Both the position numbers and the translations under genes were made by a program. Shown here piece by piece: positions 6,905-62,502 of a stretch of DNA of 64,000 nt. Positions within the stretch are counted from its first letter, which is position 1, and each line of letters begins with the position of its first letter. The notes under the pieces are model-generated. The model was given only the letters and a program-made list of their open reading frames with translations, did not search any database and had not been told where the DNA came from. The stretch comes from Nitrospirota bacterium (GTDB taxonomy: Bacteria; Nitrospirota; Thermodesulfovibrionia; UBA6902): positions 1 through 64,000 of the forward strand of contig JACRMS010000018.1 of assembly GCA_016214845.1 (NCBI GenBank), written 5' to 3'.

Positions 6905-7930
6905 ATGAAAAAAGTGAGGCTTACGCAGAACGTAAGCGCGGGCGGTTGAGCGGCAAAATTGGGTCCGGCGGACCTGTCCGAAATTCTTTCTGACATGCTC
7001 AAATGCACACACCAGAGGGTTGTCGTAGGCCCCGGTGATGACGCGGGGGTATTGCGGTTCAATGGCAATCTGCTCGTTGAAACAGTGGACGTGATCACTC
7101 CTATTGTCGACGACCCTTATACCTTCGGAGCGGTCTGCGCTGCTAACTCGGTGAGCGATGTTTATGCAATGGGAGGGAAGCCTCTCTCAGCCCTTGCTAT
7201 CCTTGGGTTTTCATCATGCGATTACCCCCCTTCCGCTGTAAGAGGTCTTTTGAAAGGCTGCATAGATAAGCTCAAGGAGGCAGGCGCGTGTTTGATCGGC
7301 GGGCACAGTATAGATGATAAGGAGTTCAAGTTCGGCCTTGCCGTAACAGGCGTAATCGATAAAAAGACTATTCTAAAAGTCGCAGGCGCATCTGCCGGAG
7401 AGATACTCATCCTCACAAAACCCCTCGGCACCGGAATCATCACATCCGCGGCGAAACGTGGGAAGGTGAAAAGCGCGGCCTTGAACAAGGTAATTTCCTC
7501 GATGCTGAAACTAAATAAAACCGCTTCAATTGCCGCTGTAGCTGCCGGTTCACAGTCAGCGACCGACGTGACAGGATTCGGTTTGTTAGGGCACGGACTA
7601 AACATGGCAAAAAGCTCAAAGACAGACCTTGTTATTTTTTATGACAAAGTCCCATTGATGGACGGGGTGAAAAAATGTGCCGCTGCCGGACTGGTACCGA
7701 AAGGGGCGCAGAGGAATCTCGAGTTCTGCAAAAAGGATGTGATCTTCTCCAACGGTATGTCGAAAGAGGAACAATTAATATTGTCCGACCCCCAGACATC
7801 CGGCGGATTGCTTATAGCGCTTCCGCCAAAGGGACTGAAAAAGTTTGACCGGATCGCAAAGAAAGAAAAAATGCCTTACTGGATCATCGGAGAAGTGATA
7901 AAAGGGAAGGGCAAAATAATCGTAAAATAG
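6905..7930 (+). CDS. selD: Selenide, water dikinase; itself a selenoprotein (Sec15)
   Basis: Makes selenophosphate from selenide and ATP, the donor for Sec-tRNA. The ATG at 6905 opens MKKVRLTQNVSAGG, followed by an in-frame TGA at 6947-6949, then AAK and the rest of SelD. The TGA falls exactly on the catalytic Cys/Sec position of the family (GG-[C/U]-xxK), so I read it as selenocysteine at residue 15; the protein is 341 aa. Downstream are GPGDDAGV, DVYAMGGKPL, GGHSI and DPQTSGGLL, as in SelD. A conventional start downstream of the TGA would remove the catalytic site. A hairpin just after the TGA supports recoding. The HEAT-repeat gene follows after 3 bp. Confidence 0.93.
6947..6979 (+). promoter_or_regulatory. 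bSECIS-like hairpin after the selD UGA
   Basis: GGTCC (6962-6966) pairs with GGACC (6970-6974) around a GGC loop. The loop begins 17 bases after the TGA, within the spacing expected for bacterial SECIS elements recognised by SelB. The G at the loop start fits the usual requirement. Confidence 0.6.
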
Positions 7931-57616: not shown

Positions 57617-60187
57617 TTATTTTATACTGAAGCTCCTCATTGAGCTTTCAGTTGCGCCGCCTTTCCCGTCTTCTGCGGTGACTTTCCAGTAATAGGCAGT
57701 GCCGGGATTTAATCCGTTCACTGTATAGCTTATATCGGAGTCAGACTCAAGAGAAATACCTAAGCTATCCCCGCCGCTTGAGCCCCCGCCGCAGGCCATT
57801 AAAATACCTCCAGTAATAACGATAGCAGCAATCAGCGACACGGTCCTTTTCCTTACTTTTATATTTGCAGCCATTAACATTCCCAGTAATAACAGCTCTG
57901 CGGTGCTGCCAGTGCTTGCGTAGTAAACCCCTTGAAGAACAGGCGAAGCAACTTTTACCGGTTCACAGCCTATGAAGTCCTGATTTGCACAATAGCTGAG
58001 TTTATAAGTCACTGTGTCACCGTCCGGGTCTTGTGCTTTATTCCATTTAAAGGTGACCGCCGTATCTAATCCTGTTTGCTTGTCTGCTGGCGAGACCAGC
58101 TCAGCCGCGGAAGGCGGAGATGGCGGGTTGTTTATGACAGGGCCGGGGGCAAGTATTGTATACATATTTTCTAATTTGTTTGAATCAATATCTGTTATCA
58201 TTCCATTGCCATCAAGATCGCACTCAGGGCACGCACTTGCCGGCTGGTCCTTGTAGTTGTTAAGTATAGTAAGGTCATTGCTGTTTACATTACCGTCATT
58301 ATCCAGATCTCCGGCCACGCAGTTTGCCCCGGCGGCATATTCATTCCCGTTCCAGTGAGTACATGTCAGAATGGCCGCTTCACCTGAATTTAATGTCACG
58401 ATATTTGACGGGCTGCCAGCACTACCATCCGCTGACACCTGCCGATACATATTATGCATCCGGAACACTTCAGGGTCATTGTAGCCTGCCTGGTCATTGA
58501 TCCTCGGACGGACCAGAATTAAAGCCTTGGAATATTTTCTCGCCAAAACCGTCTGCAGCAAACCTTCTCTGAGTTTAATATTATCAAACCACGAAGCGCC
58601 CTGGGCATAAAATAATCTGAAATAAATGTTACCGTAAATATCATCTCCGGTGGTAAAGGTGCAAAAAACGAATGTCCAGTCAGTATCTCCATTTAACGTT
58701 GCTCCACATTCACCTGATTTAGGCGTACTATCATCAAAATCGTAAGGATAAAAATTGGCTCCTGAAAACCAGTAGGTCCCTTTTACATCTTTAGTCTTTA
58801 TATAACCTGACAGCGAATACGTTGTGTGTGGTTTAAGCGTGACAGGCAGCCTGTTGCTGTTGTTTACAACATCGGCAGATTCGATCTTCACACATTGCCC
58901 GTTCAACTGACAGTCAGAGGCAGGCGCTATCTCAACCGGTTCTGCCGGGACCCAGTAAGCGGGGTCATTATTGCTGTCTTGAATCTCGAAATCCCCGTTC
59001 TTGTCTTTTAAAACATTTATCTCCTGTTCATTTGCCTCTGAAAAAATATAGTAGTCCCCTTCAGGATAGCCGACATCCACTTCAACTGCACTGATAAATA
59101 ATTCACCATTGAAATCAATATAGGGATGCATTCCGTATGCAAAGTAGCTTCTGTCTCCTGCCGCAAGATAATAACCAGCCAAAGCGTAGATTTGATCCCT
59201 TTCGCGGGAAACAGGAACTTGAATTCCAAGTGGAGCGAAGTTTTTGTGATAAACCGGATTAAACTGGAAAAGATTAATTGATCCGCGGGAAAGATCGCTC
59301 CTGACAAAATCAATGCTGTTCTTGAACTCTTTAAAAGGTTTGGAAATATCTATTAATGTTTCCCATTGAGAGCCGTGAAGTACTTGTGGAGAGCTATACC
59401 AGCCGTTTCCAATTATTATCTTGCCTGCAGGAATATTCGCAATTACAGATTTTAACAAATTAAAGTCATCTGTAAAATATTTAAAATAGTTGTCGTATTC
59501 TACAATTTTTGGGCCGTCAATCCACTCGTTTTTTATACGCCAATAACCTACTGCCGTATCAAAATAAATCCCATCGACCTTTGCATTGTCTGCTTTGTTC
59601 AAGACATAGGGGACATAATGCTCCGCCATAAACCTCTGATAGTCCGGATCGCCTACGTTCATGGCATAATTAAAAGGGGCATCAGCAGTTCCGGCTCCCC
59701 AGTAATAAGATGGTATCCTTGATGCTGCAGGATTAGTAGTATCCCAGCCGGGAACAGTCCGCGTTTCTGTTGCATTTGTCATGTTTTTCAGCGGAAGATT
59801 TATTGTCGCACTATTTTTAAAATGCAGGAACATCTTTTCAGGTATGCCGCTCGTAGTAAGGCCGTTACTTATACTCCACTGCTCAAGCCGGGCGGCTTTT
59901 TCAGAGGGAACTTCCATTTCAGTGTTCAAGTCATAAATAAGGGCAATATGTTCATGGTCGGAATCCTTCACTTCTTTAATGAAAGACAGATCATATCTAT
60001 TTCTCGAAATTTCCTCTTTTATCCCAAAGTTTTTGTAAAGACGTATATGATTTCTATTTTTGGGCAGATTGTCCAGTTGAATCGCTGAAATATTATTAAT
60101 TGAAAAAAAGGTCACGTCAAGAAAAATGATTATTAGGATCAGAAGTTTGTTCGATACATTTATTATCATAATTTTCCAGTTTGACAT
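57617..60187 (-). CDS. Exported glycoside-hydrolase-like protein with CBM, dockerin-like and interrupted FN3-like domains
   Basis: This 856-aa protein has a signal peptide (about 1-35) and a TIM-barrel-like region to about 400, with KVDGIYFDTAVGYW near 205 and IIIGNGWYSSP, reminiscent of putative glycoside hydrolases. A CBM4/9-like beta-sandwich follows at about 405-560 (PHTTYSLSGYIKTK; ASWFDNIKLREG). Two dockerin-type calcium repeats lie at about 620-680 (GDLDNDGNVNSNDLTIL; CDLDGNGMITDIDSNKL). The C-terminal fibronectin/Ig-like domain (about 700-856) is split by a ~60-residue insert with two hydrophobic helices and a lipobox-like ILMAC-GGG. Base composition is more AT-rich than its neighbours, hinting at transfer. 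The substrate is unknown. Confidence 0.75.
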   Translation of the reverse strand: MSNWKIMIINVSNKLLILIIIFLDVTFFSINNISAIQLDNLPKNRNHIRLYKNFGIKEEISRNRYDLSFIKEVKDSDHEHIALIYDLNTEMEVPSEKAARLEQWSISNGLTTSGIPEKMFLHFKNSATINLPLKNMTNATETRTVPGWDTTNPAASRIPSYYWGAGTADAPFNYAMNVGDPDYQRFMAEHYVPYVLNKADNAKVDGIYFDTAVGYWRIKNEWIDGPKIVEYDNYFKYFTDDFNLLKSVIANIPAGKIIIGNGWYSSPQVLHGSQWETLIDISKPFKEFKNSIDFVRSDLSRGSINLFQFNPVYHKNFAPLGIQVPVSRERDQIYALAGYYLAAGDRSYFAYGMHPYIDFNGELFISAVEVDVGYPEGDYYIFSEANEQEINVLKDKNGDFEIQDSNNDPAYWVPAEPVEIAPASDCQLNGQCVKIESADVVNNSNRLPVTLKPHTTYSLSGYIKTKDVKGTYWFSGANFYPYDFDDSTPKSGECGATLNGDTDWTFVFCTFTTGDDIYGNIYFRLFYAQGASWFDNIKLREGLLQTVLARKYSKALILVRPRINDQAGYNDPEVFRMHNMYRQVSADGSAGSPSNIVTLNSGEAAILTCTHWNGNEYAAGANCVAGDLDNDGNVNSNDLTILNNYKDQPASACPECDLDGNGMITDIDSNKLENMYTILAPGPVINNPPSPPSAAELVSPADKQTGLDTAVTFKWNKAQDPDGDTVTYKLSYCANQDFIGCEPVKVASPVLQGVYYASTGSTAELLLLGMLMAANIKVRKRTVSLIAAIVITGGILMACGGGSSGGDSLGISLESDSDISYTVNGLNPGTAYYWKVTAEDGKGGATESSMRSFSIK

Positions 60188-61206: not shown

Positions 61207-61968
61207 TTATAAAACCTTCACTGTCTTTTTATTCACGCCTGTATTTCCGGTTTGAGGGTCATACGCGTACACGGTCACTTCGTATGTGCCGCTCCTGGTG
61301 ACGTTCAATTCACCCTTAAAAAGACTGGGCGTGCCTGCAAAGCCGAGAGGGACGGTGTTGATAATCTCTCCGTTGTATTTAACAATGGCTTTGATCTCGT
61401 ATTTATTTGAATCCCATAACCCGCCCGGGGTCAAATGGCATCCTCATATCATTACGATATTAGCCTGTACGGGAACGGCTGCTTTATTGCCGCTCAACCG
61501 TATTTCCCCTGGAACATCTGCGGTAACAGAGAACCCCGGAACTTCCACGACTATCCCGTCTCCTACCATGTCCTTCCCCGGAATCAGCCACACCTGTGTT
61601 GAGCTTTTCACGGTATCAGGCTTCCTTGACACCGGCGCTTCCGCCTCAATCGTGACTAACGCCGGTTCCGTAATGTCAACAGTAGTTTCAAACTTTGCGG
61701 TCGCGTCATCGGTCAATCGGGCAAAACGCCGTACGGGTTCATTCATGATCCTGTTTGTGTCGCCTGTTCCTCCGGATGTCAGTCCCTCTGCAAGGACCTT
61801 CCCGGTTTCAGCGTCCTTGATCGTAATGAGCGCGCCGCCCATTGAAGTGCCGACGAATTTCGCGTCTTTTGATTTTACCCTGACGATCACTTTTGTCTGC
61901 ATGGCCTCTACGGTATTTAAAAATAAAATACCTGTGAGAAAAAATCCAGCTATCAGAAATTTTCTCAT
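61207..61968 (-). CDS. Candidate selenoprotein: exported beta-rich protein with in-frame UGA
   Basis: From ATG 61968 the frame encodes a signal peptide (about 1-22, ending VEA), then a beta-rich domain with SMGGALITIKDAETGKVLAEG and QVWLIPGKDMVGDGIVVEVPGF. At codon 175 is a TGA (61444-61446). The same frame continues with G-C-H-L-T-P-G-G-L-W-D-S-N-K-Y and another ~65 residues of well-formed beta-strand sequence, ending at 61207. Read through, the protein is 253 aa with a U-G-C-H motif. A bSECIS-like hairpin starts at the expected distance. selD in this window shows the cell uses Sec. Alternatives: a nonsense mutation, or restart at TTG 61434 (GAGGA upstream). GGAGGA precedes the ATG. Confidence 0.6.
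61404..61446 (-). promoter_or_regulatory. bSECIS-like hairpin after the UGA
   Basis: On the minus strand, 16 bases after the TGA is a CGGGC loop closed by GACCC/GGGTT (five pairs including one G-U). An outer pair ATTTGA / TCAAAT encloses it with a few unpaired bases. Distance and small G-containing loop fit bacterial SECIS elements. Confidence 0.5.
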
Positions 61969-62073
61969 CCTGTCCTCCTTCCTGTTGTTCGTTATACATA
62001 AAAACGGCAGTTGCCACTGATTTTCGCAGATTGGCGCGGAGTTATCAATGACTGCCGCAGCCGGTAGTTCAGT

Positions 62074-62502
62074 TTAGTAGCGTATTATAATCCACCTGAA
62101 AAGAGGACGGACCGAGACTTCATCAGGGGCCAGGGCGCCGTCCTTGTTTTTGTCCATGACCATGAAGGCTTCAATGATATTTGAATACTTATCGGCGTAA
62201 TTTGAAAACTCCGGGAAACTGATCCTTTTGTCAGCGTTCTTGTCAACGGACCTGAACACCTCCTGCTTGTTTTCGATGCCCTCCATGGTATTCCACTCTT
62301 CAGGCGAAATGGCCTCGTCTTTATTGGTATCTGTTTTATTAAAGGTGTCCTTTTTTATGTCCTCATAAAATTCGCCGCGCTCGATTACCCCGTCCTGGTT
62401 CTTGTCCATTTCCTTAAACAGGTTATGCAAGGCCCCTGCTGTTTCAATCCAGAAAACAGTCAGCAGACTAATAACGATAACCGTCAAAATACTTGTCCTC
62501 AT
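62074..62502 (-). CDS. Exported EF-hand calcium-binding protein
   Basis: This 142-aa protein has an N-terminal signal peptide (about 1-24, ending AGA). It has four EF-hand loops: DKNQDGVIERGEF, DTNKDEAISPEEW, DKNADKRISFPEF and DKNKDGALAPDEV. Loops 1 and 4 have the canonical Gly at position 6; loops 2 and 3 have Glu and Lys there and may bind weakly. It is probably a periplasmic calcium buffer or sensor. It lies just upstream of, and in the same direction as, the candidate selenoprotein gene, 105 bp apart. Confidence 0.9.
   Translation of the reverse strand: MRTSILTVIVISLLTVFWIETAGALHNLFKEMDKNQDGVIERGEFYEDIKKDTFNKTDTNKDEAISPEEWNTMEGIENKQEVFRSVDKNADKRISFPEFSNYADKYSNIIEAFMVMDKNKDGALAPDEVSVRPLFRWIIIRY

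Follow-up and report, generated by a model that had tools for sequence, protein, structure and literature searches.

The minus-strand gene at positions 61207–61968 of the window, the stretch of 64,000 nucleotides of Nitrospirota DNA analysed here, is interrupted by one in-frame TGA. Judging by its conservation, this TGA at codon 175 inserts selenocysteine (Sec), with a probability of about 95%. The gene appears to define a new family of bacterial selenoproteins, as far as could be checked in Pfam, NCBIfam, the PDB, a catalogue of 119 families and open-licence papers.

The reading frame and its TGA codon

The frame comprises 254 codons on the minus strand, running from the ATG that begins at 61968 to the TAA at 61209–61207, with the single in-frame TGA at 61446–61444. 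When the TGA is read as U, the product has 253 residues, with Sec at position 175. A preliminary description, which gave no strand, had reported a frame broken once by TGA and continuing in phase for 78 codons, and this holds for the minus strand; a plus-strand reading of the same interval was ruled out, the same phase being full of stops. A strong Shine–Dalgarno sequence, AAGGAGG (61974–61980), lies 5 nt ahead of the ATG. The protein is probably exported, as had been proposed, since codons 1–22 (61903–61968) resemble a signal peptide ending in VEA; residues 1–20 have low pLDDT in the structural model described below. The codons following the TGA are GGA TGC CAT, the Gly–Cys–His noted earlier, and form a Sec–Gly–Cys (UGC) motif at codons 175–177 (61438–61446), in which Sec175 would be the only selenol and Cys177 is the only thiol of the protein. 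A hairpin with a T tail, resembling an intrinsic terminator, follows the TAA (61181–61164), and no such hairpin was found 3´ of the TGA, in agreement with the earlier remark that termination is signalled only after the second half.

The Sec form was found as 19 distinct genes in 18 genomes, all full length across the TGA and with this codon at the same column (two copies in genomes G004 and G007 share one sequence and were counted once). In the 18 aligned Sec genes, this is the only column that is TGA throughout, and the copy at locus L130 also carries it. Within the same taxonomic family, the gene is present in 15 of 37 genomes, and each of the 17 copies has exactly one in-frame TGA, in the same place. 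Further Sec forms were detected by profile search at the class level (G189 and G205) and in another phylum (G855). G004 (L098 and L099) and G007 (L100 and L106) harbour two Sec-form copies each, one of which is identical at the protein level between both genomes.

Purifying selection is equal on either side of the TGA. Mean pN/pS values are 0.27/0.76 upstream and 0.26/0.79 downstream over 153 pairs, with pS near saturation for the distant ones, and the close pair with G026 gives 0.037/0.176 upstream and 0.033/0.171 downstream. Together with the full-length homologues, this supports the earlier view that the 78 codons after the TGA (61210–61443) encode real protein. The structure predicted by AlphaFold2 from the family alignment, made without the plasmid rows, has a mean pLDDT of 91 and a pTM of 0.82. 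It is an all-beta model in which two Ig-like domains can be discerned, with the TGA position in the loop that follows the strand formed by residues 162–173. The post-TGA half completes the second domain with its final five strands, so that termination at the TGA would be predicted to truncate it.

TGA is a normal stop in the code of this genome, and a 174-residue open frame would remain without any recoding. It is nevertheless extremely improbable that the codon is an ordinary stop and that what follows is a gene remnant in decay, a separate gene or the product of a sequencing error: the same TGA recurs in the 19 distinct genes from independent assemblies, the downstream part is as constrained as the upstream one, the modelled fold needs the second half and the Cys-containing homologues run straight through this position. 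The search for homologues ending naturally at the TGA, suggested in the preliminary description, yielded none among those examined.

The downstream hairpin and the selenocysteine machinery

A predicted SECIS hairpin occupies positions 61409–61443, directly after the TGA. Its 5-bp upper stem pairs 61432–61428 with 61422–61418, and its apical loop, CGGGC (61427–61423), is separated from the TGA by 16 nt. The calculated minimum free energy is -15.2 kcal/mol over 39 nt. The bacterial SECIS (bSECIS) limits are a distance of 16–37 nt to a loop of 3–9 nt, a G in the first two positions of the loop, a stem of 4–16 bp and a minimum free energy of -7.5 or lower (PMC13188914). The window hairpin lies within them, with its 16 nt, its 5-nt loop bearing G at position 2, its 5 bp and its energy, so that the geometry originally recognized stands. 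The stability then attributed to the stem is less distinctive: the sequence folds at this energy, but its z-score is only modestly unusual (-1.7, with 14 of 200 shuffles folding equally well). The values are stronger in three relatives (z of -2.5 to -3.3), and for the window gene the folding energy carries little weight by itself.

The argument against chance is instead comparative: none of the 19 distinct close homologues has lost the TGA, and the codons that make up the SECIS are almost invariant at synonymous sites. In codons +5 to +9 after the TGA, synonymous diversity is 0.10, compared with 0.65 ± 0.11 in 68 control columns, a degree of freezing reached by none of 100,000 permutations. 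These codons (ACC CCG GGY GGG TTA) build the stem with the CGGGC loop. The freezing is limited to them and to codon -1 (61449–61447), where isoleucine is encoded by ATA in all 16 Sec genes that have it there, while isoleucine codons elsewhere vary. A covariation test found no compensatory changes in the upper stem, because it hardly varies. Only L088 swaps the upper stem for a different, shifted one; in the diverged G205 gene, the pairing CATGCC/GGCATG encloses a GGGC loop at almost the same position.

The machinery for Sec insertion is present in the source genome, which is 96% complete. The genes selA and selB and the tRNA-Sec gene (selC), whose presence had been left to be checked, were all found on contig C14, between 22.6 and 34.3 kb. 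The window itself carries selD on the plus strand (6905–7930), and the Sec codon previously ascribed to this gene is indeed in frame (TGA at 6947–6949, motif UAAK, U20 of the translated stretch). We propose that SelB–tRNA(Sec) would decode the UGA at codon 175, guided by the hairpin starting right after it.

Of 17 Sec-form genomes in the Nitrospirota (G855 lies outside this tally), 15 have selA. Neither selA nor selB exceeded the cut-off in the two others, G015 (91% complete, locus L081) and G021 (88% complete, locus L084). This would most simply be an assembly gap, as the sel genes lie together in G000 and one missing contig could explain it; alternatively, both genomes may have recently lost Sec decoding. 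By comparison, no selA was found in the four Flagellimonas/Allomuricauda genomes, which carry a Cys form. Readthrough of the UGA by other means, such as a suppressor tRNA or a codon reassignment inserting Trp, Cys or another residue, would also account for full-length conservation, which by itself leaves the inserted residue unnamed. We give this possibility hardly any credence, since relatives without Sec machinery have Cys in this column, the SECIS codons resist synonymous change and selA, selB and selC are all present.

Homologues and comparison with known families

More than 30 homologues have Cys at the site. These Cys forms occur in Flagellimonas/Allomuricauda (Bacteroidota), KSB1, one deltaproteobacterium, alphaproteobacteria and other Nitrospirota, as well as on sphingomonad plasmids, including conjugative ones. 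In Bacteroidota, 19 of 395 genomes gave matches, all with Cys–Gly–Cys at the site. No further relatives were found in 16 other genomes of the class of the deltaproteobacterium, and a scan of viral contigs also returned none. Sec and Cys forms interleave in the phylogeny, where the best tree requires three or more changes of the Sec label; as far as the sequences tell, a single origin of the Sec form is possible.

The comparison of relatives at codon 175, advised at the outset, shows Sec or Cys in all homologues examined except for one divergent Nitrospira-type clade (f29; L055–L072 and L091–L094), which has Ser or Ala. None of the clade members examined retains Sec or Cys at 175, Cys177 or the preceding Met, RTLSGS being one example, and the fold persists without the site. 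A total of 112 genomes matched at the phylum level, most of them belonging to this clade. Each of the 31 distinct Sec/Cys motif contexts retains Cys177 and a Met at position 173 or 174, and both are lost in each of the 11 distinct Ser/Ala contexts. This pattern suggests that positions 175 and 177 act as a pair. Invariant or nearly invariant positions include 175–177, Trp185, Pro112, Pro130 and Gly131, and the residue following Cys177 varies (H, Q, P, A or S).

The earlier qualification of the protein as undescribed remains appropriate. No matches above the cut-off were obtained in Pfam, NCBIfam 20.0 or, by sequence, in the PDB. No corresponding entry exists in the 2026 catalogue of bacterial selenoproteins, which comprises 119 families (PMC13188914), and no counterpart by name, motif or domain appears among the new families of deep-Sep (2025), as far as the text shows, within the open-licence literature searched. 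Fold searches against the PDB and BFVD returned nothing beyond generic two-domain Ig/FnIII proteins, at low whole-chain TM-scores, and shed no light on function.

It has also been considered that the gene could belong to a known UGC-motif family missed by sequence search. In the 2026 catalogue, this motif is confined to DUF1573 and TlpA-like proteins (PMC13188914), which speaks for the idea. The DUF1573 selenoproteins (PF07610) are predicted bacterial selenoproteins sharing the Sec–Gly–Cys motif (PMC13188914); however, the window protein has two domains and a different flanking sequence (VMIUGCxLTPGGLWD), and a PF07610 search of the genome misses this locus even at E ≤ 1. The UGC-containing TlpA/Prx-like selenoproteins have an AhpC-TSA/TlpA domain, whereas the window protein lacks an AhpC-TSA match and is predicted to be all-beta and Ig-like, with no thioredoxin-like fold in the model. 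Membership of either family is thus highly improbable. Hypothetical protein DF (NF049942, deep-Sep 2025) resembles the window protein in being a predicted selenoprotein without a known domain, and its model has no match in the source genome. A full-length homologue is already deposited as a "hypothetical protein" (WP_236626950.1, from the Sphingomonas plasmid pISP1), differing at the site by Cys–Gly–Cys, with Cys in place of Sec.

Because the family is missing from the catalogue, Pfam and NCBIfam, gene calling by standard means would halve every Sec-form gene. The Cys forms are hypothetical proteins of full length, found in Bacteroidota, Nitrospirota, KSB1 and alphaproteobacteria, in part on conjugative plasmids, so that assigning a function once would inform many genomes. 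At this single position, the Sec/Cys/Ser pattern also constitutes a natural experiment on the contribution of selenium in an exported Ig-like protein.

Possible function and gene neighbourhoods

The best functional guess, held at slightly under an even chance, is a periplasmic selenylsulfide redox protein acting on reactive sulfur. The product would be a periplasmic protein with two predicted Ig-like beta-sandwich domains, with Sec175 and Cys177, its only chalcogen pair, on a loop connecting two second-domain strands. Sec would attack, or accept, sulfane sulfur or a disulfide, and Cys177 would resolve the Sec adduct to form a selenylsulfide, which a putative periplasmic reductant would then reset. 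The role of the protein would be the handling of reactive sulfur stress (persulfide, polysulfide or disulfide), and the Cys–Gly–Cys relatives would perform the same chemistry. The lack of a thioredoxin-like fold in the model speaks against this reading. A broader proposal is that these proteins form a hitherto unnoticed family, exported, Ig-folded and spread over several phyla, in which the Sec/Cys–Gly–Cys loop serves as a periplasmic relay for sulfane-sulfur or persulfide redox; this is put forward tentatively, as a possibility with the odds against it. To our knowledge, no Sec-bearing Ig-like protein carries out such relay chemistry.

Neighbourhood clustering revealed no conserved operon across the family, and most loci, including that of the window, lack one. 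Sulfur-handling genes recur near the Cys forms in a minority of loci, counted as raw occurrences. A Blh sulfurtransferase/dioxygenase is encoded next door to the Cys form at L041, a fusion of a metallo-beta-lactamase-type (MBL) domain and rhodanese lies directly downstream at L136, and the neighbourhoods of L087 and L076 contain DsrE with a multihaem cytochrome and DsbB with TauE/SafE, respectively. On two sphingomonad plasmids, an SQR-like FAD oxidoreductase, a rhodanese, a BigR-like ArsR regulator, TlpA and cytochrome bd are encoded near the Cys homologue. BigR–Blh operons are known in H2S oxidation (PMC5823870).

The main alternative is that a real selenoprotein uses its Met–x–Sec–Gly–Cys site to bind a soft metal, such as Cu(I) or Hg(II), as a periplasmic chaperone or sink, instead of doing redox chemistry. 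Among the motif contexts compared, a Met at 173 or 174 accompanies all Sec/Cys forms and none of the Ser/Ala forms, which suggests such a three-ligand soft site. Metal transporters are found near some loci (L038 and L076); a P-type ATPase is encoded in the vicinity in Sphingomonas LK11 and at the Flagellimonas-type L038. On plasmids, RND efflux genes and ArsR/SmtB regulators adjoin the gene. On the other hand, the nearest genes are more often sulfur-handling ones (Blh, rhodanese, SQR-like, DsrE), the residue following Cys177 is variable, and redox centres account for most of the characterised Sec sites (PMC13188914). Metal binding is therefore regarded as possible but doubtful, and the sulfur neighbourhood favours reactive-sulfur redox over it only moderately.

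Other features were observed around these genes. The island on the sphingomonad conjugative plasmids (L073 and L074) also encodes RND efflux components, TolC, a Tll0287-like protein, CydDC and redox proteins. In the window, a gene for an EF-hand-like exported protein (62074–62502, minus strand) lies directly upstream of the Sec gene in the same orientation, and it adjoins the Sec gene in the sister genome G026 too. Finally, the minus-strand gene at 57617–60187 encodes a large exported protein with dockerin-like repeats, in which an odd internal hydrophobic stretch and a lipobox-like sequence appear as though two proteins had been fused.
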